Source: a virus. From it: 43,079 nt of DNA. The stretch is taken from positions 1-43,079 of IMG/VR virus record IMGVR_UViG_3300027675_000013; one strand, given 5' to 3'. Under the pieces are notes generated by a model. That model ran no database searches. It was not told the origin of the DNA and saw only the letters and a program-made list of their open reading frames with translations. Positions 4,851 to 43,079 of this stretch are shown one piece after another. The stretch's first letter is position 1; each line of letters starts with the position of its first letter. Both the position numbers and the translations under genes were made by a program.

Positions 4851-4904
4851 AATAGCTCGTCATAAAAAAATGACTTGCTAAATTTACTTCTTAGGGGGGA
4901 TTAT

Positions 4905-7073
4905 ATGCCAAAATTAACAAAAAATCAAGACTGGTTTTTGGAGGTGAAAAATAACATCAGGCTTGAAAATAATGAAAGTTTTTTCAAGGGCGAAATTCCC
5001 GCTCCTGATGGGACTAAAAAAGCCATGCGTTATGGAACAGGCGAGGGTAAAACCTATAACGCCGCCTATTTTGCTTTGTATAATCTATTTTATACAGATA
5101 AAAAAATAGTTATTTCCACAACGAAAAATGAAAATGTTGAGGATCTTCTTACTGAAATCTTTGACATTTTAAAGGCCAATACTTCAAAAACTGAACCACT
5201 GGCCCAATTTTTAGGTGATGGAATTAAAAAAAGTGTTGGCAAACAGTTGTTAAAAAAGTTAGGTATCAATAAAATGGTTAGTTACAATCAAATAGCTAAG
5301 GATTTACTTGAATCTGCACGGGTAATTATTACAAATCATTCTTATTTTTACCCAAATGGCCATAGTTCATATTATTTTAAGAACATCTTAAAGTTAATGG
5401 AAGTCATCCGGGCCGATGATATCTTTATTATTGACGAGGCCGACGAGTTTGAAAAAATGGCAGAAACTAGCATACAATTAAACGACTTTTTGAAAACTGT
5501 AAAAAGTAGCACAGACAATATTTTAAGACCAGCTAAAAACTGCTTTTCGAGCCGGGATAAAGATGTTTACATTAAAAACGCTGATGAATATCGTTATGAA
5601 TTACCAGTTGAAAATTCAAACATTCGCTTTACTAAAGAAGGGGATTTTGATACTCCGACATATGTATTAGACCAAACAAGTAATAATTTAAATCTGGACC
5701 AGCTAATAAATGAGTTCTATTTTGAAAAACATACCTTTGAAGATATTGGCCGCCGGATAGGTTTTATGATTGATGCTTATGACAATAAATACAAGTTGCT
5801 AAGAGTTTACAAAGGCGAATACCTGGTTGGAAATAATATTAACCACTATAACATTGAAACTAATGATATTTTAAGGTTAATTCAAAATTCAATCGGAGCA
5901 ACTAAAGTTGAGCAAGTTATCCGGTTATTAGATCCGGTCAGTGAAGAATCAATCATTGATTTTGATACCAGAGAAGAATTTGTAAAGTGGTGTCAAAAAA
6001 ATATGACTATCCAGCAATATGATAAAATGCTGAAAAAGTTAATGAATGAGGCTCAGTTACTTTATAAGAGATTTTTAACAGTTAAAAGAAAATCAATCTT
6101 AGATACTTCCAAATGTAGCAATGTGTATTATATCACGGCAACGCCATATAACTTAACTCAATTAGACTATATAGTAGAAAATGGAAAATCAAAGAAGGTT
6201 AACACAATCGAAAATATTGATATGTTCTTTATAAATAGGGATATATCAGTTGACAACTTAGTTATCAACTTGGCGACTGAATGTTTGCTTAATTATAAAG
6301 ATGATATCAATTGTTTGGCCTTTGCGGCTGAGAAAAGAAATGTTGAGAAATTAATTAAATCCAAAAAATATCTTTACAAAGATAAGAAGTATTCTGGTAT
6401 AAAGGTAAAAACTTCGATTAATGATGATTCACTGGTTGACTATAAAGGAATAACCGCAGTATTAGGCGAGGCCGATAACTATGAATATATCAAAGATTAT
6501 TCGTATATAACATATTTAAATAGTCCAGAGGCCACCGGGAAAAATTACAAAGTAAGTAACTTATGTTTAATTAATACCCAGCCGGAAATTAACGCTTTAG
6601 GCCGTCAATTGATTACAAAAGAATATGCCAAATTTATTGACATTGAAGATTCAAGTTTTAGGACCATTCTGCAAGCTTGTGGCCGTATAGAAAGAGCCGA
6701 CAAGGAAAAATATAAGGCAATTATATTTATTGGGAAAAATGAAAGTATTATAGAGAAATACATTATAGAAAAAAAAGGAAATGGCATTAACTATAATTTT
6801 ATGAGTGACAAGACCATTGCACTTGGTGAAAAACACCTTAAAAATAAAATTATAAAAGTTTTTGACCATATCAGGGTTAATCTTACCAGTGATTTTGAGG
6901 AAATTCAACTAAGTTTTGAAGATAACCGAAAAAAACACAATAAATCCGAAATAATTCAATACTTTAATAATTTGATAGCTAATGAAATAGATTCCAAGGA
7001 AGCTAAGAAACAAACTATTTATAAATTCGGTGTTGCTAGAAATTTATTAAATCAATATATTAAGGGCCAATAA
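4905..7073 (+). CDS. DinG/XPD-like superfamily 2 helicase
   Basis: A 722-residue SF2 helicase. Motifs: GTGEGKT at 44-50 (Walker A), TNHSYF near 143 (the TNH motif typical of DinG/XPD enzymes), IIDEADEF near 177-184 (DEAD box), TATP near 411 (motif III) and QACGRIERAD near 590 (motif VI, Q-x2-GR-x2-R). I see no cluster of four Cys for an iron-sulphur domain, so it differs from classical DinG/XPD. ATG 4905 is chosen because AGGGGGG stands before it; an upstream TTG lacks a site. A TATAAT at 4840-4845 may be part of its promoter. One copy of the dispersed 13-mer encodes KEAKK near the C-terminus. The terminator overlaps the stop codon. Confidence 0.85.
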   Translation: MPKLTKNQDWFLEVKNNIRLENNESFFKGEIPAPDGTKKAMRYGTGEGKTYNAAYFALYNLFYTDKKIVISTTKNENVEDLLTEIFDILKANTSKTEPLAQFLGDGIKKSVGKQLLKKLGINKMVSYNQIAKDLLESARVIITNHSYFYPNGHSSYYFKNILKLMEVIRADDIFIIDEADEFEKMAETSIQLNDFLKTVKSSTDNILRPAKNCFSSRDKDVYIKNADEYRYELPVENSNIRFTKEGDFDTPTYVLDQTSNNLNLDQLINEFYFEKHTFEDIGRRIGFMIDAYDNKYKLLRVYKGEYLVGNNINHYNIETNDILRLIQNSIGATKVEQVIRLLDPVSEESIIDFDTREEFVKWCQKNMTIQQYDKMLKKLMNEAQLLYKRFLTVKRKSILDTSKCSNVYYITATPYNLTQLDYIVENGKSKKVNTIENIDMFFINRDISVDNLVINLATECLLNYKDDINCLAFAAEKRNVEKLIKSKKYLYKDKKYSGIKVKTSINDDSLVDYKGITAVLGEADNYEYIKDYSYITYLNSPEATGKNYKVSNLCLINTQPEINALGRQLITKEYAKFIDIEDSSFRTILQACGRIERADKEKYKAIIFIGKNESIIEKYIIEKKGNGINYNFMSDKTIALGEKHLKNKIIKVFDHIRVNLTSDFEEIQLSFEDNRKKHNKSEIIQYFNNLIANEIDSKEAKKQTIYKFGVARNLLNQYIKGQ

Positions 7074-7849: not shown

Positions 7850-8407
7850 ATGATAAAGAAAATATTAGTAGTAACTTTAATTTTATGTGTAATTTTCTTG
7901 ATGGGAAGTGTTGTATTGGCCGGCGGTTCCGGTAGCGGTAGTTTAGATGAGTATGGCGGCCATTTTATCAAGGCCGATGGCTTAGCTGTGGCCTATCATT
8001 ACTATAAAGGGGATTATGTTGGCTATGAAATTAGTTTTACTAATCCGGTAAAATGGGAATGTAGATTGAAAATTAAAAGACCTTTAGATCCTAATGATAA
8101 CACTTTAGGAACATGGACCAAAAATGGTTGTAGTTTGTCGCCAAGTGCAAGTATATCACCAAGTGCAAGTATATCACCAAGCGCAAGCACTTCACCGGAA
8201 GAAAGCAATTCTCCGGAAGTTTCAAGCAGTCCGGAAAATACGCCAGGGCAAAATTCGCCGGAGGCCACTGTTAACCCTACATCTACAAATCAAAATACAT
8301 TGCCAAAAACTGGGGAATCTAGCAGCGCTTTAATTTATTTAGGAATTGCTGTTTTACTGGCTGGAGTGACTTTCGCAATTATATTTAGAAAAAAATTATT
8401 TAACTAG
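7850..8407 (+). CDS. LPXTG cell-wall-anchored surface protein
   Basis: A 185-residue secreted protein. Residues 1-24 form a signal peptide (basic start, hydrophobic core, VLA cleavage site). About 75 residues of mature domain with two Cys follow, then a Ser/Pro-rich stalk near 98-145 with SPSASI repeats (18-bp DNA unit three times at 8141-8194). The end is a classical sortase signal: LPKTG at 151-155, a hydrophobic helix, and a basic tail (RKK). It would be covalently fixed to Gram-positive peptidoglycan by host sortase. This is unusual for a virion gene and suggests alteration of the infected cell surface. AAAGGGGAG precedes the ATG. The gene stands between a control region and a second accessory gene. 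Confidence 0.9.
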   Translation: MIKKILVVTLILCVIFLMGSVVLAGGSGSGSLDEYGGHFIKADGLAVAYHYYKGDYVGYEISFTNPVKWECRLKIKRPLDPNDNTLGTWTKNGCSLSPSASISPSASISPSASTSPEESNSPEVSSSPENTPGQNSPEATVNPTSTNQNTLPKTGESSSALIYLGIAVLLAGVTFAIIFRKKLFN

Positions 8408-8418
8408 GAGATTGATAA

Positions 8419-8673
8419 ATGAAAAATTATATAGGTAGTAAGATTATACAGGCAGAATTATCAACATTAGATTGCTATAAGCGAATGAAATATGGTCCTT
8501 TAGCCGTTGTTAATTTAGATGATACATCAATTGAGGGATATATAGTAAACTACCCACCAATTGGTGGCGACTTTAAACCTTATATATCATGGAGCCCAAA
8601 AGATGTATTCGAAAAATGTTATAGGGAAATTGAAGATGCTGAAAAATCTCTAATTAATGGATTTTGGGGCTAA
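8419..8673 (+). CDS. Small phage protein with SWSPKDVFEKCYR signature, 84 aa
   Basis: The C-terminal half carries ISWSPKDVFEKCYREIE, which I recognise as the recurrent ending of a small protein family frequent in phages and prophages, usually preceded by a GY-x-V-x-YP segment; here GYIVNYPP at about 47-54. The N-terminus (YIGSKIIQAE) also fits. I do not know a proven function and give no symbol. It follows the LPXTG gene by 11 bases with AGGAG upstream and is closed by a terminator. Confidence 0.65.
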   Translation: MKNYIGSKIIQAELSTLDCYKRMKYGPLAVVNLDDTSIEGYIVNYPPIGGDFKPYISWSPKDVFEKCYREIEDAEKSLINGFWG

Positions 8674-8685
8674 GAAATCACCCTT

Positions 8686-8731
8686 AAAAATAAAGGCTTT
8701 TAACCCAGTAAAACAGGGCCTTTATTTTTTT
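8686..8731 (+). terminator. Intrinsic terminator
   Basis: AAAAATAAAGGC (8686-8697) pairs with GCCTTTATTTTT from 8718 on, ending in a run of Ts. It closes the LPXTG and SWSPK gene pair. Confidence 0.85.
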
Positions 8732-8828
8732 ACGCTCATTTCTAGACAATAGAAAAATTCTTATGAATAAATGGTTGTTAAACTAAAATAAAATGTCTGT
8801 AAAACATCGTAGTCAAAAAATACCTCTC

Positions 8829-8887
8829 AAAGCCGCGTTATTAGCGGATTTCTTAGCTTCCTTCTAGCCCAGTAATAACGCGGCTTT
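8829..8887. repeat. Perfect 15-bp stem with 29-base loop carrying antisense 13-mer
   Basis: AAAGCCGCGTTATTA (8829-8843) is exactly complementary to 8873-8887. The loop 8844-8872 contains TTTCTTAGCTTCC, the reverse complement of the word repeated through the genome. If transcribed on the plus strand, the loop could pair over 12-16 bases with seven phage mRNAs. There is no T-run after the stem, so a simple terminator is unlikely. It may instead be a DNA site. No clear promoter was found for it. Confidence 0.8.
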
Positions 8888-8960
8888 CAGATTTAACTAA
8901 AAAATGATTTCAAAATAGGTATAAAATTTCGAGGCTGAAAATAAATACTTAAAAAATAAG

Positions 8961-8989
8961 TTGACAACTTATAAAATAAGTTATATAAT
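8961..8989 (+). promoter_or_regulatory. Early promoter P1 (TTGACA-17-TATAAT)
   Basis: Perfect -35 (8961-8966) and -10 (8984-8989) with a 17-base spacer, about 45 bases before ATG 9034. ATAAGTTG and CAACTTAT form a palindrome over the -35 and a further ATAAGT lies before the -10. These elements recur at P2-P4. Confidence 0.85.
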
Positions 8990-9033
8990 TAGAATGTAAG
9001 TTAAATAATTAATTTTTTGGGGAGGCCAATAAT

Positions 9034-9726
9034 ATGAAAAAAGTAACATTTAGTAAATTAATCGAAAAGAAGTTTGTAAGAGATTGTTTGACCAATGAAA
9101 GAGAATTAAATTATCCTTTGGGATATAGGGGCGTTGTTATAACTGTTAAAAATTCCGATGATGGCAAAGGGTTATTGTTAAGCCTAGAAAGATATTTAAA
9201 TGAATATGATCTAATTGATTTTACAGAGTATGATGCTAGTTTATCAACATGGGACAATAAAGCGGAAATAACTTTCGTGGTTAATGAAGATCATTTAGAT
9301 GTTTTTTTTGAAGTTTATGACGAGTTCAAAATAAATCACAAATCAATAATTGAAAGATTCATCAAAGAAAATGAAGATTGCCAAGACGATACCGAAATAA
9401 AATTGACTCCAGTAATTAGAGTTAACACCCATAAAGAATATGAAGCGGCTAAAAGGGAATTAAAGGCCGAATTTGATAAAGTGATTATTAATAACCATGA
9501 TTACCAAAGGGAAATTTTAGAAGTATCAAAAAAATATAATGAAATGATTTCCGATATACATAATGTTTTGTTCCTTGCCCATATAAATCAATTATCTCCT
9601 GAGTGGGTTCAATGTTGGATACATCACAAAGAAAAATGGGATTATTCGGACCTAATTATCAAATGGGCAAGAATGGCCGAAACTGGTAAATATATGTTGT
9701 CTAAAATGTTGATATTTGAATATTGA
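9034..9726 (+). CDS. Hypothetical protein, 230 aa
   Basis: A soluble acidic protein directly behind promoter P1 with GGGGAGG before the ATG. The N-terminal half looks alpha/beta with many acidic residues. A charged helical segment lies around 130-185 (KEYEAAKRELKAEFDK) and a Trp-rich C-terminus (PEWVQCWIHHKEKWDYSD) follows. No catalytic motif or known family is recognised. It stands alone between two members of the early promoter family, so it is probably an early gene. Its leader closely resembles that of the helicase at 4504. Confidence 0.7.
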   Translation: MKKVTFSKLIEKKFVRDCLTNERELNYPLGYRGVVITVKNSDDGKGLLLSLERYLNEYDLIDFTEYDASLSTWDNKAEITFVVNEDHLDVFFEVYDEFKINHKSIIERFIKENEDCQDDTEIKLTPVIRVNTHKEYEAAKRELKAEFDKVIINNHDYQREILEVSKKYNEMISDIHNVLFLAHINQLSPEWVQCWIHHKEKWDYSDLIIKWARMAETGKYMLSKMLIFEY

Positions 9727-9774
9727 GGCGGCCTGAGGGCCTCTCAAAAAAATAATAAATACTTAAAAAATAAG

Positions 9775-9803
9775 TTGACAAATTATAAAATAAGTGCTAT
9801 ACT
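9775..9803 (+). promoter_or_regulatory. Early promoter P2 (TTGACA-17-TATACT)
   Basis: TTGACA (9775-9780) and TATACT (9798-9803), 17-base spacer, followed by TATATTATA. The block is nearly identical to P4 over about 40 bases. ATAAGT half-sites flank both boxes and the -10 itself contains the inverse, ACTTAT. Confidence 0.85.
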
Positions 9804-10720: not shown

Positions 10721-10763
10721 TACCACTTAAAAAATAAGTTGACATATTATTTTTTAAGTGGTA
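10721..10763. promoter_or_regulatory. Perfect 17-bp inverted repeat around P3 -35
   Basis: 10721-10737 and 10747-10763 are exact reverse complements around a 9-base centre holding most of TTGACA. The arms contain CCACTTAAAAAATAA. The symmetry places identical half-sites just before the -35 and just before the -10, as expected for a repressor operator. Confidence 0.8.
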
Positions 10764-11841: not shown

Positions 11842-12204
11842 ATGGGACGATTATTTACAGTCGTGGGATTGCCTTATTATGATTACAATGATAATAAGGA
11901 CCATATTAAAAAAGGTGATTATATCACCTTGAAAAAGGACCCGGAAAATAAATTCGATAAAAATGCGGTAATGGCTTATTACAAAAATCTACCAATTAAA
12001 ATTGGATATATTAGCCAGCAAGAAAACGAATATTTGTTTGATAACTTTGACGATTTAAATCATATTACATATACAATATATTCCTTTTATAAAAATGTAA
12101 TACTTATTGAAGAACATATAAGAACTAAAGAATTAATTGATTTTCCTGAGTATAAATTTTTTAGTTATGTAAAGAGCCTATTATTTAAATTGATTAGAAA
12201 ATAA
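11842..12204 (+). CDS. Stand-alone HIRAN-domain protein, 120 aa
   Basis: The first 80 residues fit the HIRAN domain: a FTVVGLPYYDY start, GDYITLKKDPENKFDKNAVMAYY in the middle and KIGYISQQENEYL after it. HIRAN domains in HLTF-type enzymes bind the 3' end of single-stranded DNA; small phage versions are found near replication and recombination genes. The C-terminal 40 residues are basic. It starts one base after the previous stop, and promoter P4 overlaps its own stop codon. Confidence 0.75.
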   Translation: MGRLFTVVGLPYYDYNDNKDHIKKGDYITLKKDPENKFDKNAVMAYYKNLPIKIGYISQQENEYLFDNFDDLNHITYTIYSFYKNVILIEEHIRTKELIDFPEYKFFSYVKSLLFKLIRK

Positions 12205-12205
12205 G

Positions 12206-12234
12206 TTGACAAATTATAAAATAAGTGATATACT
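12206..12234 (+). promoter_or_regulatory. Early promoter P4 (TTGACA-17-TATACT)
   Basis: TTGACA (12206-12211) and TATACT (12229-12234), 17-base spacer, followed by TATATTATAAT. Nearly identical to P2 from AATAAGT to TATATTATA. It begins at the stop codon of the HIRAN gene and drives the recombination gene at 12275. Confidence 0.85.
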
Positions 12235-12274: not shown

Positions 12275-13012
12275 ATGGCAGAAAATTTAGGATTTAATAA
12301 GAGAATACAATTATGTAAGAAAGAAGTATTTACTAATGTTACTGAGTCGGGCGAGTTAGACAATATAAAAGGCACTGATAAAACAGGATTTTATAATTTA
12401 GCAACTATCTATAAGTTTTTACATCCAGCTTTAGATAAGTATGATTTAGATTTAGAAATGGAAATGGAACCCGGTCAAATGAGGGCCGCATGGATTGATT
12501 GCAATGGCGATACGGAAAAAAAGAGAATAATCGGCATTGACTTTCATGGGGTTAAAGATGTTGAAAGACTTCCATTGATGGCTAATATAGTACAATCGGA
12601 GGGGGCTGTTAAAACATATTTGAGGCGTTATGCTTTGACTTTTGTTCTTGGTTTACCATCAACCGACATGATAGATACTCAGGACCAAAAACAACCAGGT
12701 AAAAATAATAATCAGTCCGGGCAAAACTCACAAAACAAAACCCAGTCACCAAGCCAACAAGAAAAGCCGTCGGTTTTAGCTAATGATAAACAATTAAAGG
12801 CCATGTTTACATTGATGAATATCAAGGGTGTAACTAAGGAAAAAATGAAGGCAAGTATTAAAAAGCAATATGGAATTGACTCAAGTAAGCAATTGAATAT
12901 TAAACAATATAATGACATAATGAAGTATTTTAAAGGGTTACCAGATAAGCCAAAGGAAGCTAAGAAAGGCGAAACTACAACACAATCAGAGTCTGAAAAA
13001 ATTCAAAGGTAG
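12275..13012 (+). CDS. erf: ERF-family single-strand annealing protein
   Basis: A 245-residue protein with the hallmarks of the ERF/Sak recombinase group: YNLATIYKFLHPALDKYDLDLE at about 41-62 and GAVKTYLRRYALTFVLGLPSTD at about 109-130, where the T-Y-x2-RYA-L motif is characteristic. These proteins anneal complementary single strands in phage recombination and repair. Residues 138-165 form a Gln/Asn/Ser linker, followed by a helical C-terminal domain and a Lys-rich end with KEAKK encoded by one dispersed 13-mer. GGGAGG precedes the ATG. It is the first gene behind P4; nuclease and methylase genes follow. Confidence 0.85.
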   Translation: MAENLGFNKRIQLCKKEVFTNVTESGELDNIKGTDKTGFYNLATIYKFLHPALDKYDLDLEMEMEPGQMRAAWIDCNGDTEKKRIIGIDFHGVKDVERLPLMANIVQSEGAVKTYLRRYALTFVLGLPSTDMIDTQDQKQPGKNNNQSGQNSQNKTQSPSQQEKPSVLANDKQLKAMFTLMNIKGVTKEKMKASIKKQYGIDSSKQLNIKQYNDIMKYFKGLPDKPKEAKKGETTTQSESEKIQR

Positions 13013-14518: not shown

Positions 14519-14782
14519 ATGGAGGATGAATTTAAACCAAGAATAATGACATTAGATGATTATCATTTTAATTTAGAACGTATTTTAAATATTTCAATCT
14601 ATGATCCAGAAACCAAGGAATTTATTTTTGAAAAAAATGATCATGATTTTGATACTGTTATAAAGCAATTTGATTTTGTTGATGCCGTTTTTAAGGGTAT
14701 TGGTGATTTACATATTGAATTAGAAACTCAACATTATTATGTACACTGTGAAAAAATAAAAGTAATCTTATTTGAAAGTTAA
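14519..14782 (+). CDS. Hypothetical protein, 87 aa
   Basis: An acidic 87-residue protein with many Asp, Glu, His and aromatic residues. TAAGGAGG before ATG 14519 decides the start. A likely beta-rich C-terminal half (LHIELETQHYYVHCEKIKVILF) is preceded by helices. No family recognised. It sits between the ERCC4 nuclease and the methylase. Confidence 0.6.
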   Translation: MEDEFKPRIMTLDDYHFNLERILNISIYDPETKEFIFEKNDHDFDTVIKQFDFVDAVFKGIGDLHIELETQHYYVHCEKIKVILFES

Positions 14783-14804
14783 AATTGAAAGGGGAAAAAT
14801 AAAA

Positions 14805-16121
14805 ATGGAAATTAGTTGCAAATCAATTGAATTAAAAATTGATGAAGAATTTAAGAAATTAATACCACCATTAACTGCAGAGGAAAAGACACAATTAGAA
14901 AACAATATTTTAGATAATGGGTTATTGGCCCCAATATTATTATGGAATGGAATTATAATTGATGGGCATAATAGATATGAGATACTTCAAAAAAATTCTA
15001 TTGAATTAACTGAAAAAGATATATTTGATATGAAAGATATCTTGAAAGATCGGGAGGCCGTTGTTGAGTGGATTCTTAAGAATCAAATGGGCCGCCGTAA
15101 TTTGAATAATGACCAAATGGCTATTATTAGAGGAAAATTGTATTTACTTTATAAGAGACAAGGCCGCCGGACTGACTTAGAAAATGAGACTTCTAATCAA
15201 ACCGAGGGAAAGTCTGAAACTAAGAAGGAAAAACAAGAAACGGCCGTAAAAATAGGGGAGCAGTTTGGCGTATCTAAGGCTACTATTGAAAGAAATGCTA
15301 AATTTGTTAAAGAGGCGCCACCGGAAATAATACAAAAAGTTCAGGACGGCGAATTGTCTATGTTAAAAGCCAAAAATGAAATCAGGACCCAAAAACAAAA
15401 TGAAAAAATCGAAGAGGCCCAAAAAATAGACTTACCAAGTGATATAAAAATATTGGCCGGTGATGTAATGGAACAATTGACAACAATTGAAAATGAATCA
15501 ATTGACATGTTATTAACCGATCCACCATATTATATTTTAGGGGATCAGGAGTGGGATCAATTTGTCGATAAGCAATCTTATTTTAGATTTATTTCTTCCT
15601 GGTTGGAATTGGTCACCAAGAAAATAAAAAGAACCGGCCGCATATATATATCATTCGCTCATGATTATATGTTTGATATTTATCAAATTTTCAAAGAGAA
15701 TAATTTTTATGGATTTACATTTGGAAATGTTCTCATATGGAATATGAAAAACAATGTAAAACCATTTGACAAAAAGCGTTATAGGATAAGTTATGAACCA
15801 ATATTTTATTTATATGGACCAGAGGCCAGCGAAATGAATTTTGATGATAACCCAAAAGTATTACCTTTTGGCGTTCATGACATTGCGGTTCCTCAAAGCA
15901 ACTTTGAGGAGGGTAAATTCCATCCATGCCAAAAACCTTTGGAACTTTATAGGCGTCTTATTCAATCGGGATCTGAATCTGGTGATTTAATAATTGATTG
16001 TTTTGCCGGTTCCGGGACAACTGGCGTTGCTTGTAAAGAATTGAATAGATCGGCAATACTTATTGAAAAAAGTGAAGATTATATAAAGATTGCTAAAGGT
16101 CGTATAAATTCCGTTATATAA
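14805..16121 (+). CDS. ParB-like domain fused to DNA methyltransferase
   Basis: A 438-residue two-domain protein. The N-terminal 95 residues are ParB/sulfiredoxin-like, with IIDGHNRYEIL near 57-67. A helical region with an HTH (KIGEQFGVSKATIERNAKFV) near 148-167 follows. The C-terminal half is an N6-adenine/N4-cytosine methylase: DPPYYI near 237-242 (catalytic motif IV) and DCFAGSGTTG near 398-407 (AdoMet motif I). Motif IV before motif I gives the beta-type order. Such ParB-methylase fusions are common in phages of Gram-positive bacteria and may protect phage DNA from restriction. The target sequence is unknown. No restriction partner is seen. AAAGGGG precedes ATG 14805. Confidence 0.9.
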   Translation: MEISCKSIELKIDEEFKKLIPPLTAEEKTQLENNILDNGLLAPILLWNGIIIDGHNRYEILQKNSIELTEKDIFDMKDILKDREAVVEWILKNQMGRRNLNNDQMAIIRGKLYLLYKRQGRRTDLENETSNQTEGKSETKKEKQETAVKIGEQFGVSKATIERNAKFVKEAPPEIIQKVQDGELSMLKAKNEIRTQKQNEKIEEAQKIDLPSDIKILAGDVMEQLTTIENESIDMLLTDPPYYILGDQEWDQFVDKQSYFRFISSWLELVTKKIKRTGRIYISFAHDYMFDIYQIFKENNFYGFTFGNVLIWNMKNNVKPFDKKRYRISYEPIFYLYGPEASEMNFDDNPKVLPFGVHDIAVPQSNFEEGKFHPCQKPLELYRRLIQSGSESGDLIIDCFAGSGTTGVACKELNRSAILIEKSEDYIKIAKGRINSVI

Positions 16122-16867: not shown

Positions 16868-16890
16868 CGAATTAAGAAAGGGGTTTGATT

Positions 16891-17220
16891 ATGTCTAAGG
16901 AAGAAATTAAGGAAATCGAAGTTAAGGAAGCTAAGAAACCAACTAGAATTATAAATTTAGGGTATGTTAATGCTGAGGAAACTATAATTGTGAATACAGA
17001 TGATTCAAGAATAAGCAAAGTTGTTATAAATGGGGCGGCTTTTGAAATTGAAGTTATCTATGACGAGGGCCGCGGAATGTATAGGGCCGCTTTTATTCAA
17101 GAAGGTTCCCGGACTAGCTTATCATTCTTCAATAATAAATTAGTTGCTTATAAATCGGCGTTACTCTCTGTTTGTTCTATGGTCGGGCTTACATTGAAAA
17201 ATATAAATGTTACTTTGTAA
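16891..17220 (+). CDS. Hypothetical protein, 109 aa
   Basis: A Lys/Glu-rich N-terminus of about 17 residues (EEIKEIEVKEAKKP) precedes a beta-rich domain (KVVINGAAFEIEVIYDEGRGMYRAAF). The KEAKK stretch is encoded by one copy of the dispersed 15-mer. GAAAGGGG before ATG 16891 supports the start over an upstream TTG. No known family. It stands directly before the holin gene. Confidence 0.6.
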   Translation: MSKEEIKEIEVKEAKKPTRIINLGYVNAEETIIVNTDDSRISKVVINGAAFEIEVIYDEGRGMYRAAFIQEGSRTSLSFFNNKLVAYKSALLSVCSMVGLTLKNINVTL

Positions 17221-19027: not shown

Positions 19028-19636
19028 ATGCAGGCTAATATAATAAATTACTATAAAAAAATTACAGACTTAGCAATTAAAAATATTGCTCAGGAGAAGC
19101 AATTTAGATTTAGATCGAAATTAAATAGTTCGGTCCTAATTTTGCAATCTGAGGATTTCTTAATTAAGCAATTTAAAAAGGCGTCCGGTGGTGGCCCTTT
19201 GTCTGATGAAGCTAAGAAATTAATAGCTGATTACAAAACATCTATAAAACGAATAAATATATTAGCCTCAAAATCTTATGATAGTACGCTGGCAAAACTT
19301 AAAAAGGCCAAGACTGATGACGAAAAGTTAAAAATATTGCATAATCTGGCTGGGAAAGGTTTTGCCGGCTTTAAAACCAAGGACGGTAAAATTTGGAACA
19401 TAGAAACTTATACCAATATGTTATTTACATATATGTCAAATGAAATGGTTAGGCAGGGTGTAATGAGTCTTATTAATAATGATAAGTATAAAATATCTGA
19501 TGGCCACACAATATGCGATATATGTAAATTGTATGAAGGTAAAACATTAACCAGGGAAGAATTAGAAAGGGCCAAATCAAATGGTCTATTTCATCCTAAT
19601 TGTGTTCATTTTATAATCGAGGTGAAAGATGAATAA
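19028..19636 (+). CDS. Minor capsid / head morphogenesis protein (MuF-like)
   Basis: A 202-residue protein whose C-terminal 45 residues carry the signature of phage minor head proteins: a CDICKLYEGK segment and GLFHPNCVHFIIE, with His, Cys and Asn at the positions conserved in the SPP1 gp7/Mu gpF group. The N-terminal 140 residues are helical and basic. Such proteins sit inside the head near the portal. In most phages the gene follows the portal; here it precedes the large terminase and the protein is shorter than usual. The 12-base form of the dispersed word encodes DEAKK near 62-66. Confidence 0.7.
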   Translation: MQANIINYYKKITDLAIKNIAQEKQFRFRSKLNSSVLILQSEDFLIKQFKKASGGGPLSDEAKKLIADYKTSIKRINILASKSYDSTLAKLKKAKTDDEKLKILHNLAGKGFAGFKTKDGKIWNIETYTNMLFTYMSNEMVRQGVMSLINNDKYKISDGHTICDICKLYEGKTLTREELERAKSNGLFHPNCVHFIIEVKDE

Positions 19637-20065: not shown

Positions 20066-21337
20066 ATGCCTGATGTTTGCTTAGAAAAAGTAATTTCCCC
20101 TTCTTTTGTTCCTTTAATTAATCCTATTCTTGATTGTCAGGTTGACGAGGTAGTTTTAACCGGTGGCCGTGGCTCTACAAAATCGTCGTTTTACTCTGAA
20201 ATAGTTTTATATGGTATGTTAGAAGATTGGAAAGTTAGGGGGGAAATTACTCACGCCGTATGTATTAGAAAAGTCGCTAATACGCTCCACAATTCTATTT
20301 ATAATCAATTTAAATGGGGGCAATATATATTGGGAATAGACAAAGATTTCCATAATACCGCGTCGCCAATGAAAATGACTTTCAAACCATCCGGCCAAGA
20401 AATACTATATTTTGGTTGTGATGACCCTCTAAAGATTAAATCGACAATATTACCACAAGGCTATATTAAATATATCATTTTTGAAGAATTTGACCAGTTC
20501 GACGGAATGAGGGAAATTAGGAGCGTTATCCAATCATTGGCTAGAGGTGAAAAATCATTAATCTTTTTTATTTTTAATCCACCCCCAGAACATGACCATT
20601 GGGCAAATATTGAGGCCGATGCTGTAAAGGAGGGGCGGTTAAGATTACATACAGATTATACAAAAGTTGATCCAAAATGGTTAGGTCCTAAATTTATGAA
20701 AGAAGCTGAATATTTAAAAACCGCTAATTTTATAGCTTATCAAAACGAATATATGGGAATTGTTACCGGGGTAGGTGGTAATATATTCAAAAATGTTATT
20801 AATAAGCCTTTTTCAGATTTGGAATGTATGGAGTTTGAAAAAGTCAGACAAGGTCTTGATTTTGGTTTTGCCCTCCATCCTGCGGCTTGGGTAAAACTTA
20901 ATTACAATGGGGCCAGAAATTCAATAGATATCTTCGATCAAGTGTTTGGAATTGGAATTTCTAATATTAAACTGGCTGAGGAAATTAATAATCGGGCTAA
21001 TTTATTCGTGGCGACTAAGGCCGATTGTGAGGAACCGCGCGCAATTGATGCCCTTATAAATACATATGGCTGTAATTTAATTAAATGTAAAAAAGGCAAA
21101 GATTCGGTTCATTGGGGGATAAGATATCTTCAAGATATGTCTGCCATAAATATTGACAAATCTCGATGCCCTGATGTTTATAGACAATTTAAATTTTACA
21201 ATTATAAGAAAAATAAACAAGGTGATTTTATTAAAGAATACCCAGACATTGAAGATGATTCAATTGATGCAACAAGATATAGTTTAGATGATATAATTAT
21301 GGCTAAAGGTTGGAGAGTTCCAAAAAAGAAAGTATAA
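20066..21337 (+). CDS. terL: Terminase large subunit
   Basis: A 423-residue packaging ATPase and nuclease of the PBSX/SPP1 (Terminase_3) group. Walker A is GGRGSTKSS at 33-41; the Walker B and catalytic Glu lie in YIIFEEFDQF near 134-143. The coupling motif is near FNPP (about 170). The RNase H-like nuclease part shows GLDFGF near 263, a second acidic cluster ADCEEPRAID near 315 and DSIDATRY near 399. The enzyme packs DNA into the prohead and cuts it. SPP1-like relatives package headfuls, which fits a circularly permuted genome. The portal follows after 21 bases. Confidence 0.92.
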   Translation: MPDVCLEKVISPSFVPLINPILDCQVDEVVLTGGRGSTKSSFYSEIVLYGMLEDWKVRGEITHAVCIRKVANTLHNSIYNQFKWGQYILGIDKDFHNTASPMKMTFKPSGQEILYFGCDDPLKIKSTILPQGYIKYIIFEEFDQFDGMREIRSVIQSLARGEKSLIFFIFNPPPEHDHWANIEADAVKEGRLRLHTDYTKVDPKWLGPKFMKEAEYLKTANFIAYQNEYMGIVTGVGGNIFKNVINKPFSDLECMEFEKVRQGLDFGFALHPAAWVKLNYNGARNSIDIFDQVFGIGISNIKLAEEINNRANLFVATKADCEEPRAIDALINTYGCNLIKCKKGKDSVHWGIRYLQDMSAINIDKSRCPDVYRQFKFYNYKKNKQGDFIKEYPDIEDDSIDATRYSLDDIIMAKGWRVPKKKV

Positions 21338-35523: not shown

Positions 35524-37725
35524 ATGCCCGATAAAACTTATGTAATAGCAACCGGGTCCGATGATGGTCATGTTACAAGTGCTGGCGGTTTTAATAATAG
35601 TGATACATGGGTTGAGGTAGGTGGTACTAGTACCACTTATTACCATGGCTTTTTAAGATTTGATAATGTTGATATACCACAAGGGGCAATTATAGACAGT
35701 GCTTATTTTGATTATATAGCATATAGCACTGAAACCGGGTATAGTAGAGTTCGTATATATGGTTGTAACGAGGATGATTCTGCTGCTGTTAGTTCATATA
35801 GTAATTTTAATAGTAAATCATTAACAACGGCTTATACTGATTGGAATATTGAATGTCCTTCTAGCAATGTTGATTTTATAGATGGGCCTTCAATAAAAGA
35901 TATCATTCAGGAAATAATTAATCGTCCTGGTTGGGTTAGTGGAAATGCTATACAATTACTTATTAAATATCGTGTTGACGGTTTAGTTCATGAAAGTTTT
36001 CAGTACGAAGAAGACGGAGACACTGATTGGTTATATATAACATACCACGAAAATATTAATATTTCAGTACCAGTTATTAATACAACTTGTGAAGCTAAAA
36101 CACCAACTGTAAGTTACAATAGAAAAGTAAATGTACCATTAATTAATATTACATGTGAGGCAAAAATCCCAACTGTAAGTTATGCAAGTAATATAACTGT
36201 TAATGTACCGGTAATTAATACAACTTGCGAAGCTAAAACGCCGATTGTAACTTACAATATAAAGATTAATGTTCCGGTTATTAATACAACTTGTGAAGCA
36301 AAAGTTCCAACTGTAAGTTATGGAATTAAAGTAAATGTTCCGTTAATCAATGTTGTTTGTGAAGCAAAAATTCCAACTGTTAATTATAATATTAAAATAG
36401 ATGTACCATTAATGACCGTAACTTGTGAGGCTAAAACACCAACTGTAACACATAATATTAGGATAGATGTTCCCTTAATTAATGTTAATTGTGAAGCTAA
36501 AACACCGACTGTAACTATTGACCAAGATATAGTTATTAATGTTCCATTGATCAATATTCTATGTGAGGCGTTAATTCCAACCGTTAGAATTAGTAACATT
36601 CCTGTTTTTGTATTAAACAATGGAACATATTTTACAAGAAATAGACTTGAATCATTTGAATTTGAATTGTTGTCATTAAATAATGAAAGGTATGAAAACG
36701 CCGGATGGGTGACGGATTATGTTATAAAGAAAAATTCTAGCATTACTATGGATTTTACAAGAAATGTTATAGGGACGGCAAGTTTTAGCATTAGGAATAA
36801 CACTGATATTAATTATTTATCAGATTTAATCCGACCTTGGTATGTATTAAATGATACATATAGATTCCCTTTAGGGACTTATATGCTATCAAGTCCACGT
36901 AAAAAATCTGATGGTAAGATGGTATCAAGACCAATTCAAGGATATGATTTATTACTTGCTTTAGAGCAAGACAAGATGATTACAAGCGTAACATATGAAG
37001 CCGGGGAAAATGTAATTGATATAATTGAGACTTTGTTATATATAGTTGGGGCTAACTTATGGGTTAATGCCGATATTACACCTTCTAGCGAAGTATTGGC
37101 CACAAATGTTAGTTATGAATTAGGCAGGAGTAAATTATTTATCATTAATTCTCTGCTTAATATGATAAACTATTATCCTTTGTGGGCCGACGGTAACGGG
37201 GTATTTAGGTCCATTCCCTGGACAAATGAGCCTAATAAAACATATGAGTTTATAGATGATAATTTAAGTATTTATACTCCAAATATTGATTTAACATTAG
37301 ATTATACTGATATGTATAATAGGGTTGTTATTATTAACAATCAATTGGCACAAGATACAGAGCCGTTATACAAGGTATGGACTTTTGAAGATGAAAGTTT
37401 AGGAAGTCATCCTTTTAGTTATTCAAGTTTAGGGAGATATATAACGAAAATCTTCCAAAGTGATGCAGTTAGTCAAGATTATGTCGATTTGCGAGCAAGA
37501 AGGGAACTATTAAAAATGTTAGAAATAGAGGAAGCCGTAAATTATAACCATGCTTTTATTAGTTCCAGAGAAAACGATGGATTACCATGGCAGGGGGATT
37601 GTTACAGATTTAAAAACACAAAGTTAGATGTGGATAGTATTTATAAATTAGAAGCATTCACATATAAGTTAGAAACTGGAAGTTTGGTAAATAGTAGAAT
37701 TAAGAGGATAAGGAGTACGTATTGA
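35524..37725 (+). CDS. Tail tip protein: jelly-roll, eight-repeat stalk and tail hub
   Basis: A 733-residue three-part protein. Residues 1-175 are a DNRLRE-like beta sandwich (FLRFDNVDIPQGAIIDSAYFDY). About 178-360 contain eight tandem repeats of 22-24 residues of the form VNVPLIN-x2-CEAK-x-PTV, each with one Cys. About 365-733 resemble baseplate hub/tail-associated proteins (FRSIPWTNEP, DYTDMYNRVVII, DGLPWQGDCYRF). The repeats probably form a rigid beta stalk between a receptor-binding head and the hub. The DNA repeats every 66-72 bases. GGGGTGAT precedes the ATG. Confidence 0.7.
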   Translation: MPDKTYVIATGSDDGHVTSAGGFNNSDTWVEVGGTSTTYYHGFLRFDNVDIPQGAIIDSAYFDYIAYSTETGYSRVRIYGCNEDDSAAVSSYSNFNSKSLTTAYTDWNIECPSSNVDFIDGPSIKDIIQEIINRPGWVSGNAIQLLIKYRVDGLVHESFQYEEDGDTDWLYITYHENINISVPVINTTCEAKTPTVSYNRKVNVPLINITCEAKIPTVSYASNITVNVPVINTTCEAKTPIVTYNIKINVPVINTTCEAKVPTVSYGIKVNVPLINVVCEAKIPTVNYNIKIDVPLMTVTCEAKTPTVTHNIRIDVPLINVNCEAKTPTVTIDQDIVINVPLINILCEALIPTVRISNIPVFVLNNGTYFTRNRLESFEFELLSLNNERYENAGWVTDYVIKKNSSITMDFTRNVIGTASFSIRNNTDINYLSDLIRPWYVLNDTYRFPLGTYMLSSPRKKSDGKMVSRPIQGYDLLLALEQDKMITSVTYEAGENVIDIIETLLYIVGANLWVNADITPSSEVLATNVSYELGRSKLFIINSLLNMINYYPLWADGNGVFRSIPWTNEPNKTYEFIDDNLSIYTPNIDLTLDYTDMYNRVVIINNQLAQDTEPLYKVWTFEDESLGSHPFSYSSLGRYITKIFQSDAVSQDYVDLRARRELLKMLEIEEAVNYNHAFISSRENDGLPWQGDCYRFKNTKLDVDSIYKLEAFTYKLETGSLVNSRIKRIRSTY
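36055..36600 (+). repeat. Eight 66-72-bp tandem coding repeats
   Basis: Each unit contains a TGTGAAGC-like core (TGTGAAGCTAAA in several) encoding CEAK and a start such as AATGTTCC encoding NVP. Units diverge at silent and replacement sites, so the array is not a recent expansion. It lies wholly within the tail tip gene. Confidence 0.85.
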
Positions 37726-38424: not shown

Positions 38425-38449
38425 AAAAATTAAAAAAGTGGGTGAAAAT

Positions 38450-38863
38450 ATGAAAAATCTAATTATTGCTTCAATTATTATTTTGTTGCTGGTAATATGG
38501 GCCTTGACACCAAAAGGAGGTGAATCCCGGCCAATGGATAACAAGAAGATCGAAACCAAGGAAGCTAAGAAAGCCATAAATTTTGACGGAAAATATAAAA
38601 ATAAATATGGCGCAATCTGTGAAATTAAAGGCAATAGGGCTTTATTCTATGCCAGCAAAACAGATTTAAAAACCGGCTCATTTATTGAAGACAATTTTAT
38701 TGAGTCTAATCTGGCCGGAGATGGGCAAGCTAAAACCCTTAAATTTCGTTATATTGATGATACTGGCGGATATACAATAGTTATTTCTGAACATGATTTA
38801 AAAATAACCTATGAAAACCCGGAGGAAAATGATTTGATTGCAAATCAATATAAAAAAATATAA
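38450..38863 (+). CDS. Membrane-anchored or secreted accessory protein, 137 aa
   Basis: The first 20 residues are a hydrophobic anchor or uncleaved signal (KNLIIASIIILLLVIWAL). A Lys-rich linker with KEAKK (from a dispersed 15-mer) follows, then a beta-rich domain with AICEIKGNRALFYA and TIVISEHDLKITYENP. Own promoter, terminal position and terminator make it a typical moron. A small lipocalin-like or stress-protein-like outer domain is possible, but no family is recognised. GGGTGAAAAT precedes the ATG. Confidence 0.6.
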   Translation: MKNLIIASIIILLLVIWALTPKGGESRPMDNKKIETKEAKKAINFDGKYKNKYGAICEIKGNRALFYASKTDLKTGSFIEDNFIESNLAGDGQAKTLKFRYIDDTGGYTIVISEHDLKITYENPEENDLIANQYKKI

Positions 38864-38999: not shown

Positions 39000-40043
39000 T
39001 TAAATAGTACTTTCTTTATATTTTAAACTAGTCCCGGAAGATTGAAAACAATCTAATTCATTTTTAATTTTTTTCCATTGGCTTTCTGTTAAGTCAAATA
39101 TTTGTCTAATCTTACCAGTGGGAATTGTATCTCCATTTTTGAAATTTTCTTTTAAGTAAGTTGCAATTTCATCTTTTAAAATAGTTAAGTCCTTTTCTTT
39201 TAATAAGATTACATTCTTAACTTTTCCTAACTCTTGACTTAACTTTTTATTTTCTTGACTTAACTCCGACTTAACTTTTTCTAACTCTTGATTTAGTTCT
39301 TTTCCTAACTCAATCTTAACTGGTTCTAACTTAGGATTATCAATGATTTTGTTACTTGACTCAGTTAAGACATTTTTTTGTCCATCAATTATTTTAAATG
39401 TCTCTTGATTGTCACTTAAGTCAAAAGTTAAGTCTTTCAAATTATTGCTATAATCTCTAATTGTATCCATTCTTAACTTATGCAATTTATTAAATAACAT
39501 CATGCGAAAAATTGAAATTAAGCCAGCCGATTCAATTCTTTTTATTTTATTTTCTTGATAATTTAGAAGCCTGAAATCACCGCCAATCGTAGTTGTTAAT
39601 AATATAGATGCTTCTAAAGCGATTGATAAGGCCAAATTCCATAATGTTTTTTCATTAAAGAATTTATAATTATAATTTATGGAAATTGAAAACAATGTTA
39701 ATTGCAAAATTTTAGCTACAAAATAATATCTGGGAAACTTTTGTTTAATGGTTGACTCTTTGATACATATCCCATAGACTACTAATTGACAAAAAATAAT
39801 ACCAATTACAAACCCTATCAAGCCAAGGGTTGTTTTATGGGTTTTTAAGCCGCCGACAATGGTCATAATTGTGGAAGCTAAGAAACCCATAAACCCAATT
39901 AAACCAAATATATAACCCCATAATTTAGTATTATTATCATATCTAATTTCATTCTTTAAATGGCTAATTGTTCTTTTAACTGAAATAAAATCATAATCAA
40001 CTTTAATTTTTTTTATTTTTTCTCTCATTTTTTGAATATCCAT
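39000..40043 (-). CDS. Membrane protein with coiled coil and winged-helix end, 347 aa
   Basis: Four likely membrane helices near 43-65, 72-92, 108-122 and 132-152 are followed by a long coiled coil near 240-290 (ELGKELNQELEKVKSELSQ) and a C-terminal helix-turn-helix-like region (GKIRQIFDLTESQWKKIKNEL). A membrane-bound protein with a DNA-binding tail could tether DNA at the membrane, matching the FtsK-like gene at the head of the operon. No family recognised. GGGAGG precedes the ATG. One copy of the 13-mer lies antisense in it (39873-39885). Confidence 0.65.
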   Translation of the reverse strand: MDIQKMREKIKKIKVDYDFISVKRTISHLKNEIRYDNNTKLWGYIFGLIGFMGFLASTIMTIVGGLKTHKTTLGLIGFVIGIIFCQLVVYGICIKESTIKQKFPRYYFVAKILQLTLFSISINYNYKFFNEKTLWNLALSIALEASILLTTTIGGDFRLLNYQENKIKRIESAGLISIFRMMLFNKLHKLRMDTIRDYSNNLKDLTFDLSDNQETFKIIDGQKNVLTESSNKIIDNPKLEPVKIELGKELNQELEKVKSELSQENKKLSQELGKVKNVILLKEKDLTILKDEIATYLKENFKNGDTIPTGKIRQIFDLTESQWKKIKNELDCFQSSGTSLKYKESTI

Positions 40044-40289: not shown

Positions 40290-40773
40290 TTGATTTTTCC
40301 TCCCTTAATAATTTATATTTGCGGTTCATTTCCACAATTTCACTTATCCAGCCAATAGACAATAATTCATTAAATCTCTCAGATATAAGATCCTTACCAC
40401 AATAAAAATAATTTGAAATCAATCTGTTCCCCTCTTTTGTATATATCCCGTCTATGGCTTTATCTTTCATGTATATATACATCATTTCTAATTGACAATG
40501 CTTAGATAGCTTTTTAAAATTTTGGCGGTTATTTTCGTTAAATTCGGGGTCATTTTCTGGGGAAATAACATCACACTTTCCGCCGCCGCCACCTTGAAAG
40601 TATACTATAGTTGATTTTCCTTCTAAAAAATTCCTTAAATGAGTTTCTGAAAATTTGCTATTGTGTGGCGGCTTTATCGGGTAAAGGGGATTTATTAAGA
40701 TCGGCTTTACCTCTGGTTGGTTTAGCGTAACCAATTTCCTTAATTGCTTCAAAAACTCTATTATGTTTATCAT
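40282..40773 (-). CDS. Putative winged-helix protein, 163 aa
   Basis: The second half is helical and ends with a region resembling a winged helix (LISERFNELLSIGWISEIVEMNRKYKLL), as in replication or transcription regulators. A run of five Gly (QGGGGGK) near 60 is unusual. The first 39 codons overlap the FtsK-like gene (116 bases) in another frame. Since AAAGGGGGTG lies 10 bases before ATG 40773 and no good internal start exists, the overlap seems real. No family recognised. Confidence 0.6.
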   Translation of the reverse strand: MINIIEFLKQLRKLVTLNQPEVKPILINPLYPIKPPHNSKFSETHLRNFLEGKSTIVYFQGGGGGKCDVISPENDPEFNENNRQNFKKLSKHCQLEMMYIYMKDKAIDGIYTKEGNRLISNYFYCGKDLISERFNELLSIGWISEIVEMNRKYKLLREEKSNE

Positions 40774-42430
40774 CTATATACACCCCCTTTAATTTGTAAA
40801 TAATCCCTTTTTCATCTTTGAAACAAAAATAACCCTGCTCTTGATGCATTGCATAATCATAATAGTCTGGACTTTCTAACATATATTTTATTTCGGATGA
40901 TTCAGCAAATTTATGTATTGCTCTCCCATCAATAGAAACTCTCCACGATTTATAATATTGGTCGTCGGTGGCCTTTTGAATTATGTCTAATATATGGAAT
41001 CCAACCGACCTTGATTTAGTTAGAAAATATGTTCTAATATCTTTGTAATTCATTTCTTGAGTTTCGGTCCCAAAATCAATAGTGTATTCTTTTTTATAAT
41101 TCATTTGGACCGGTGTGTTAATTTCATCACTAACAATTAGGAAATAAGGCAGTGGATTATCTGGGAACATTTTATTATACTGTCCAATGTCCCGACATTC
41201 TATCCCAGTATCAAAAGTAACATCTTCAAATATTTTTAACCTTCTTTTAAATTCAGCAATCAAGTTAATATAAAATTCCATTTGGGCCGATTCTGAGTCC
41301 TCCAGCATATGAATATTTTTAATGCCTCTATATTTATTCATGGCGGACCTTTTGAAATCGGTTATGAATATAACTAACTTATCGTAACTATAATATTCCA
41401 TTCCATCAATCCACGTGTTAGCTGTGCAACTTTTACCGGTGTTAGTCATGCCGCCAACTATAGCGTGGGTTAATTTTGTCATGTCGGAAAATACTACTTT
41501 ACCATTGGTCGGATTAATTCCAACTATAAAAGGTAAGATCATATCTTTTGGCGGTCTTACTGTCTCTATAACTTCATCTAGGTAATAGATTTTATTTTCT
41601 AATTTTTTGATTTTAAATTCATAGTTACCGCCATTAGTTGTAACTTCTAAACTACCCGGTTTAATTCCCAATTTATGAGTAACTTCGTTTAATTCTCTGT
41701 TTAAGAATTTTAGCTTAATTTTGGACTGATAAATATATATGTCCTGATATTTGTCAGTTGTTGCACTTACAAAATTTGGTAACCCCTTCATGTCTTTTAG
41801 TATCTGTTCTAACCGGTCCCGGCTTCCTATTTCCATCTTACTATATCTATCATCGAAACCCTTTTTATACTTAACATAATAAATATTTCTATTGAATATG
41901 TCGTTTTTTATCTTGGTAACGGTAGAATTTGTGATAATATTTAATTGGTTTTTATGTGTTTCTGTTAGTGGGATATTGGATTTTAATGTCAATACGCCCC
42001 TAACATTTTCTATTAAATTTACATCATTTTTAAAACTTTTTTCTAAATTATTTACAATCTTTGTAGTTTTTTTGAAATTCCAAATAATAAATCTTATTAA
42101 GTCTAATGGATAAGCTAATATTAAGGGTAAAAACAATGATTTAAGGGGGAAATTACGTTTTATTATTAGCAATCCAACCAGAACAAACAAAGCAATTAAA
42201 AACCCAATAACCCCTCTAAAATCTAGTTTAAAAAAATATTCATGAGTTAACCGCATCATTGAAAACAGTTTAACCCTTTTTTTTTGCTTTTCCATGGCCA
42301 ATTTTAGCATTTGGGAAAACAAAATAAAAAATAAACTAAATAGTGGGTTTTGGCCGAAATATTCGAGGGCTATTCCGATAACGCAAAATGAAATTATTTC
42401 AAATTTTGTTATTGATATTTTATTATTCAT
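40658..42430 (-). CDS. FtsK/TcpA-like DNA translocase or coupling ATPase
   Basis: A 590-residue protein. Three or four membrane helices lie in the first 125 residues (about 8-45, 74-92, 99-117). Then come a cytoplasmic linker and an FtsK-type ATPase domain with Walker A GGMTNTGKSC near 324-333, a Walker-B-like strand LVIFITDFKRS near 354 and a second IVSDEIN strand near 431. The order resembles coupling proteins of Gram-positive conjugative elements such as Tn916 Orf21 and ICEBs1 ConQ. It may move or segregate phage DNA at the membrane. No relaxase is seen. AAGGAGGT precedes the ATG. Confidence 0.8.
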   Translation of the reverse strand: MNNKISITKFEIISFCVIGIALEYFGQNPLFSLFFILFSQMLKLAMEKQKKRVKLFSMMRLTHEYFFKLDFRGVIGFLIALFVLVGLLIIKRNFPLKSLFLPLILAYPLDLIRFIIWNFKKTTKIVNNLEKSFKNDVNLIENVRGVLTLKSNIPLTETHKNQLNIITNSTVTKIKNDIFNRNIYYVKYKKGFDDRYSKMEIGSRDRLEQILKDMKGLPNFVSATTDKYQDIYIYQSKIKLKFLNRELNEVTHKLGIKPGSLEVTTNGGNYEFKIKKLENKIYYLDEVIETVRPPKDMILPFIVGINPTNGKVVFSDMTKLTHAIVGGMTNTGKSCTANTWIDGMEYYSYDKLVIFITDFKRSAMNKYRGIKNIHMLEDSESAQMEFYINLIAEFKRRLKIFEDVTFDTGIECRDIGQYNKMFPDNPLPYFLIVSDEINTPVQMNYKKEYTIDFGTETQEMNYKDIRTYFLTKSRSVGFHILDIIQKATDDQYYKSWRVSIDGRAIHKFAESSEIKYMLESPDYYDYAMHQEQGYFCFKDEKGIIYKLKGVYIDDKHNRVFEAIKEIGYAKPTRGKADLNKSPLPDKAATQ

Positions 42431-42465
42431 TTCTGTTTACCTCCTTGATTTTTCCTCATACTTAT

Positions 42466-42494
42466 ATTATACTTATATCATAAGTATAAGTCAA
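42466..42494 (-). promoter_or_regulatory. Promoter for FtsK-like operon, with ATAAGT operator
   Basis: On the minus strand, TTGACT (42494-42489) and TATAAT (42471-42466) are 17 bases apart. The region 42467-42489 is a 10-bp inverted repeat (TTATACTTAT/ATAAGTATAA, 3-base centre), and ATAAGT words recur as in P1-P4. Confidence 0.8.
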
Positions 42495-42857: not shown

Positions 42858-43079
42858 TTACGAAAAGTTAGATTACTTAAAACACCATGTTGAAAACTAT
42901 TTAGAACAAATAAAAGATATTCGTTTTAAATATAGCTTTGATTTAGAAACGGCTGTAAATGTCTTATTTGACCGGGAATATAAATATACTTTGGTCGAAT
43001 TAAAAAGAAATGTAAAAAATTGTATTGATGAAATGATAAAAATATATAACGAGTTTGATAAATATACAAAAGGTTATAC
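42847..43079 (+). CDS. 5' part of seam-spanning hypothetical protein
   Basis: ATG 42847 opens a frame that continues through the end of the window into 1-167, giving 90 residues in total. The N-terminus is helical (DYEKLDYLKHHVENYLEQIK), and the whole looks like a small alpha-helical protein. GCGAGGTAAGGG lies upstream. Function unknown. Confidence 0.75.
   Translation, partial: MMIDYEKLDYLKHHVENYLEQIKDIRFKYSFDLETAVNVLFDREYKYTLVELKRNVKNCIDEMIKIYNEFDKYTKGY
42953..43079. repeat. Terminal overlap, right copy
   Basis: Identical to 1-127; see the left copy. It should be counted once in the circular genome. Confidence 0.95.

Follow-up and report, generated by a model that had tools for sequence, protein, structure and literature searches.

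A word of 13-14 bases, RAGGAAGCTRAGA(W), in which W stands for the A or T that comes next in the eight related phages used to define it, is scattered in many exact copies over phage genomes, including that of a phage unrelated to the others. Somewhat tentatively, it may be a host-read DNA signal shared by the phages of a single unrecognised bacterial lineage of low G+C, one that overrides codon choice and protein sequence in unrelated phages; such a signal would be longer than any known Chi site and, in hosts that are probably Gram-positive, would have no precedent of its length among uptake-like or recombination-control words. The broader proposition, that the word is read on DNA by a host factor of some kind, we regard as probable. 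An override of codon choice across unrelated viruses would point to a strong and general interaction with the host. The word, searchable as RAGGAAGCTRAGAW, provides a sharp tag for finding that host and sister phages, and its mechanism is directly testable.

The word in the window

The window, meaning the whole 43,079-base stretch that was analysed, contains nine copies of GAAGCTAAGAAA, its most over-represented 12-mer, against 0.02 expected, and none of 100 shuffled sequences reached nine, which bears out the rarity asserted in a preliminary description of this DNA. Every position and strand given there for the nine copies is exact, as is the statement that six of them share the 15-mer AAGGAAGCTAAGAAA (Table 1). 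Under a third-order Markov model of the window, GGAAGCTAAGAAA reaches log10 p ~ -22. That description is corrected in one respect: the nine copies are unequal, and it is the six 15-mers that represent the true element. Of these, four (656, 6996, 8849 and 12953) are kept base for base in the nearest relative, G001 (portal protein 75% identical; five exact 12-mers), despite differing flanks. The other three copies (19205, 32058 and 39871; GATGAAGC.., GTGGAAGC..) are missing the leading AAG, and none is intact in G001, whose sequence is altered opposite 19205 and 39871 and gives no alignment for 32058. Since exact copies occupy the place of 19205 in G002, G012 and G079, this copy may be a decayed site.

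Table 1. Features of the window, with copies of the word and their context
Feature	Position	Strand	Context
Phage genome window	1-43,079		Whole of IMG/VR record IMGVR_UViG_3300027675_000013
AAGGAAGCTAAGAAA	656-670	+	Small ORF 513-698, off the K-E-A-K frame (sense, frame 2); kept in G001 at 36974
AAGGAAGCTAAGAAA	6996-7010	+	Close to 3' end of ORF 4875-7073; kept in G001 at 43579, flanks diverged, 3-base gap adjoining
Gene for small secreted protein	7850-8407		C-terminal LPXTG-type sortase anchor
Gene for 84-aa protein	8419-8673		50-66% identity across most relatives
Inverted repeat with 29-base loop	8829-8887		Predicted RNA fold -25.2 kcal/mol
AAGGAAGCTAAGAAA, inverted, intergenic	8849-8863	-	Kept with flank GGATTTCTTAGCTTCCTTNTAGCCCAGTA in G001
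Sigma-70-type promoters, four near-identical	8953-8966, 9767-9780, 10731-10744, 12198-12211		AAAATAAGTTGACA ... TATAAT
AAGGAAGCTAAGAAA	12953-12967	+	C-terminal tail of Erf-like annealing protein gene 12275-13012; also in G001; Erf of G002 stops short of the site
DNA methyltransferase gene	14772-16121		Fused ParB-like N-terminal domain
AAGGAAGCTAAGAAA	16924-16938	+	Close to 5' end of ORF 16885-17220; not in G001 or G002 homologues
GATGAAGCTAAGAAA, degenerate	19205-19219	+	Minor capsid-like gene 19028-19636
Terminase large subunit gene	20066-21337	+	Reference point for copy clustering
GATGAAGCTAAGAAA	32058-32072	+	Tape-measure gene; probably chance
AAGGAAGCTAAGAAA	38558-38572	+	In ORF 38438-38863; not in G001 or G002 homologues
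GTGGAAGCTAAGAAA	39871-39885	+	Antisense to ORF 39000-40043; altered in G001; probably chance
FtsK/SpoIIIE-like ATPase gene	40658-42430	-	590 aa; in minus-strand gene block kept in G001 and G002
Block ATACTTATATTATA	42459-42490		Between the minus-strand gene block and the record's right end

Distribution among phages

A search with the portal protein led to nine related loci (G001 and the like are labels of related or carrier viral contigs), and G011, G012 and G013, whose structural genes are 30-45% identical to their counterparts in the window, were first found by a blind 15-mer scan. In G001, G002, G005, G009, G011 and G012, the top or near-top 12-mer is the word itself or differs from it by one base, and the reversed pattern, used as a control, is absent from all 13 records. 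In the eight related phages, 61 exact copies of RAGGAAGCTRAGA were counted against 0.05 expected in third-order Markov sequences, and no single-base variant has more than five; 13 positions are nearly invariant, and positions 1 and 10 of the word tolerate A or G.

Exact copies number 80 in ten viral genomes, nine related and one unrelated, at a density of ~0.18 per kb; these carriers are not independent, as the window and G001 are close kin, and so are G005, G008 and G009. A further 149 contigs, which came to light only because they hold a copy, were counted whole, and G079, a 37.8-kb relative of the window with four copies, and G080 are the only two of them with more than two copies. The low counts in these ~150 contigs exclude chance or a contig artefact as the source of the word. 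The unrelated phage G080 (88,665 bases) carries fifteen copies, and the word is its top 13-mer; its DNA polymerase, DnaB helicase, sliding clamp, terminase and portal are its own, and what it has in common with the window group is mainly tail genes, plus a few small genes. The 79 newly fetched terminase-relative loci yielded no copy, save one on the carrier contig G008. Additionally, G067, whose tail and terminase genes are shared with the window, has a single copy, and the exact word is absent from G003, a close relative. The word is neither general to such phages nor confined to one phage family.

A common host is the simplest link among the carriers, and G003 may have a different one. In favour of a word read by the host, no non-structural phage protein was found in common among all carriers, although a fast-diverging one could be missed. 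A host-read DNA word would explain the sharing between unrelated phages, the absence from G003, the sharpness of the word and its placement where proteins tolerate it.

Selection on the bases

The notion that the word merely echoes a repeated K-E-A-K-K peptide written in favoured codons is barely credible: 45 of the 54 coding copies do read (K/E)EAK, but the minor lysine codon AAG is used every time, copies are also intergenic, in frame 2 or antisense, and one site in the terminase gene is maintained in two frames. All four KEAK peptides of the window are spelt AAG-GAA-GCT-AAG (AAGGAAGCTAAG) against 0.05 expected, as are those of G001 (2/2), G005 (5/5) and G012 (5/5), with AAG supplying 22% of lysine codons in the window and 14-22% across these phages. 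At the same aligned place in the terminase gene, the word stands in frame 0 (NKEAKK) in G012 and in another frame (ESRKLRI) in G079. This site and the spelling of KEAK refute codon or peptide bias as the sole cause. The codon usage first noticed for EAKK was confirmed, six of its seven occurrences being written in this exact codon series where codon usage predicts 0.33, and the copies reported off the EAKK frame (656), antisense to a gene (39871) and in non-coding sequence (8849) are as described. Between the window and G001, the weaker copies have been changed by substitutions and not by insertions. These comparisons show that selection acts on the nucleotides and not on the encoded protein, and that new copies of the word arise through substitution.

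Arrangement of the copies

The copies cluster around the terminase gene. When each genome is divided into quarters, the one just upstream of terminase holds 43 of the 80 exact copies and the one just downstream holds 20, with 13 and 4 in the two quarters between. Near matches with three mismatches serve as an even control, at 110/105/84/75 for the upstream, two intermediate and downstream quarters (chi-square p = 8e-6). The same holds for G080, in which 13 of the 15 copies are located between the replication genes (54-80 kb) and terminase (16-17.6 kb). Intergenic sequence holds 21 of the 80 copies, compared with 26 of the 374 near matches, and 47% of the coding copies lie within 60 nt of a gene end, compared with 21% of near matches (p = 1.5e-4). 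Copies in genes favour one reading frame, and many are deep inside genes.

Orientation is less telling. Copies in genes are sense rather than antisense by 55:2, but near matches share this bias (299:34), which is then due mostly to the purine richness of coding strands. Relative to the direction of the terminase gene, 69 copies are co-oriented and 11 are not, which is not clearly in excess of the near-match background (301:73).

Inverted pairs of the word between genes occur in G002 and twice in G011, with a further pair carrying one mismatch in G003. Both pairs of G011 lie in one intergenic region (6154-6702, L135), immediately before a small gene (6763) whose product resembles a helix-turn-helix regulator. 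A scan of all viral contigs for such hairpin pairs returned two more, L152 and L153, in phages with no enrichment of the word; both were judged to be chance. A separate hairpin, GGGAAGCTCTCTTAGCTTCCC, has a variant of the word in its arms and loop and is kept in both G005 (11503, L141) and G009 (5750, L143).

Comparison with recombination signals

The preliminary description had offered two readings of the word. The one that makes it a signal in the DNA, serving replication, recombination or packaging, fits in outline, given the selection at base level, the sharing between unrelated phages and the clustering at terminase; a phage antisense RNA is unsupported. Among host-read words, Chi fits the map of copies best, and on that map a Chi-like role is put forward as the likeliest of the readings, though still tentatively. 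Chi sites are recognised by RecBCD or AddAB of the host and are over-represented in its genome. Chi sites of lambdoid phages are over-represented, occur at ~0.2 per kb and are concentrated between the replication genes and terminase (PMC3784561). The word resembles them in its over-representation in different phages, its density, its position between replication genes and packaging site, and its largely single orientation. It differs in its length (13-14 bases, compared with 8), in forming inverted pairs and in being known here from phage genomes alone.

If the word is Chi-like, a host factor would read RAGGAAGCTRAGA(W) as a sequence-specific signal on double-stranded DNA, and the phages of that host would have accumulated it through point mutation. 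At the word, an end-processing helicase-nuclease of the host would stop degrading and switch to recombination, and the copies between the replication genes and terminase would safeguard the DNA end that packaging leaves behind and allow its repair. By the polarity of lambda and RecBCD, the copies co-oriented with the terminase gene (69 of 80) would be active for an enzyme that enters at the packaging cut. The word would then be the longest such signal, and its phages would be tuned to the nuclease of a host other than the model species.

Several observations count against a Chi-like role. Known Chi sites have 5-8 bases, and a site of 13 would be exceptional. The inverted pairs of G002, G011 and G003 are unexplained by Chi and rather recall uptake sequences, the orientation bias does not clearly exceed its background, and the clustering at terminase could partly reflect the tolerant small genes there. 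Additionally, the window encodes an Erf-type annealing protein of its own, and G067 has its one copy despite the tail and terminase genes that it has in common with the window.

Comparison with uptake sequences

It is possible, though unlikely, that the word works in the manner of the Neisseria DUS or the Haemophilus USS: a naturally competent host would prefer DNA bearing it, and biased uptake followed by recombination would have spread copies in the host and its phages. Uptake words number hundreds to thousands of copies in the genome of such a host. Uptake sequences show biases in reading frame and toward gene termini (PMC2346458), form inverted pairs (PMC2397512) and occur in dialects (PMC3630211). 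The word shows each of the first three, its inverted pairs being closely spaced, and its A/G variant in G002 resembles a dialect; like the uptake sequences of Neisseriaceae and Pasteurellaceae, which have 10-12 bases, it is sharp and enriched between genes. It is unlike them in being known here from phages, in its low-G+C, probably Gram-positive setting, and in clustering round terminase, which uptake does not predict. Furthermore, G080 looks virulent and would have little cause to hold 15 uptake words. To our knowledge, no uptake word has been recorded for Gram-positive bacteria, and if the word is uptake-like, it would be the first for such a host.

Comparison with stoperators and start-associated sequences

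A third explanation, which we hold to be quite unlikely, takes mycobacteriophage L5 as its model: the word would be an asymmetric 13-bp repressor site, blocking transcription at its many locations. The stoperators of cluster A mycobacteriophages, L5 among them, are asymmetric 13-mers scattered over the phage genome in the direction of transcription (PMC9283540), and the word agrees with them in length, asymmetry, dispersal and mostly co-directional orientation, with copies near gene boundaries. In L5, however, operators and stoperators are one sequence, whereas the four promoters of the window (8953, 9767, 10731 and 12198) lack the word and carry another dyad. The word lies mainly in genes, often deep within them, and off promoters, recurs in an unrelated phage, and is accompanied by no regulator gene common to all carriers, although a fast-diverging repressor could be missed.

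The four early-type promoters share the block ACTTAAAAAATAAGTTGACA or a close variant, containing the dyad ACTTA-TAAGT. This dyad likely marks a phage repressor regulon separate from the word. In three of the four, an operator-like dyad, ACTTAAAAAATAAGT, covers the -35 box, and ATACTTATATTATA overlaps the -10 region of three. The latter block appears again near the right end of the record (Table 1), beside another ACTTA...TAAGT dyad.

The start-associated sequences of cluster K mycobacteriophages (SAS/ESAS) are 13-mers placed before start codons, mostly in one orientation and partly as inverted repeats (PMC3203893). The word is like them in being an asymmetric 13-bp repeat of mostly one orientation, with some inverted copies and a Shine-Dalgarno-like AGGA. 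It is unlike them in that only a minority of its copies precede a start codon, while SAS sit just before them.

The hairpin and RNA-level readings

The inverted copy at 8849 does lie, as first described, in the 29-base loop (8844-8872) of a perfect 15-bp stem, in which 8829-8843 pairs with 8873-8887. Identity to G001 over the surrounding region (8686-9104) is 78%, and the retention there of the inverted word with its flank indicates that this intergenic copy matters. The perfect stem is not conserved in G001: the counterpart folds into a weaker, imperfect hairpin (-13.9 vs -25.2 kcal/mol in the window).

These results bear on a reading at the RNA level, in which the mRNA copy of the word is the target either of an antisense RNA, supplied by the host or by the 8829-8887 hairpin, or of an RNA-binding protein; in the hairpin version the transcript would carry UUUCUUAGCUUCCUU. 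We consider such a reading, taken as a whole, quite unlikely. The inverted copy and flank kept in both genomes are consistent with it, either base tolerated at positions 1 and 10, A or G, could pair with U, and several copies overlap a ribosome-binding site (GAGGAAGCTAAGAAATG in G005 and G080). The sense orientation in genes, which also agrees, was dropped as proof, near matches being nearly equal in bias. Against it, five many-copy carriers (G005, G009, G013, G079 and G080) have no exact antisense intergenic copy, and G001 keeps the word and flank without the perfect stem. The sites are no more accessible in predicted RNA than controls, with a predicted single-strandedness of 0.544 for 55 coding sites and 0.545 for 330 control placements (p = 0.95). 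Moreover, no Rfam family matches. The proposal of a trans-acting antisense RNA of the phage thus found no support. A likeness of GGAAGCTAAG to what we take to be a conserved part of 5S rRNA was also dropped, as the 5S sequence would not account for the A/G at position 10 or the following A.

The genome, its host and other features

The record carries an exact direct repeat of 127 bases at its ends (1-127 and 42953-43079). It therefore closes on itself, as a circularly mapping phage genome of ~42,952 bases. The host is probably a low-G+C, Gram-positive bacterium. The protein with an LPXTG-type anchor (7850-8407), odd for a phage, suggests a Gram-positive host. Phage relatives of the window in GenBank are distant only, and the sole prophage-like match from a single scan of genome collections is a Desulfovibrio MAG of 69% G+C without the word. 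The word is also missing from three records of human-gut phages whose terminase or capsid genes are related, plasmid searches returned weak FtsK and DUF2829 matches only, and no tRNA or Rfam RNA was found in those phages that were searched. The FtsK/SpoIIIE-like ATPase is distantly similar to plasmid proteins of Paenibacillus, Bacillus and haloarchaea.

G080 contains a second repeated block, CCTTGACATGTGTAA (L373-L377), which is probably its own promoter family. In the window, the 84-aa protein has no Pfam match at E 0.01. It resembles DUF2829 proteins of enterobacterial plasmids and phage proteins annotated as anti-CRISPR, and DUF2829 is a family that we take to be the anti-Thoeris protein Tad2.
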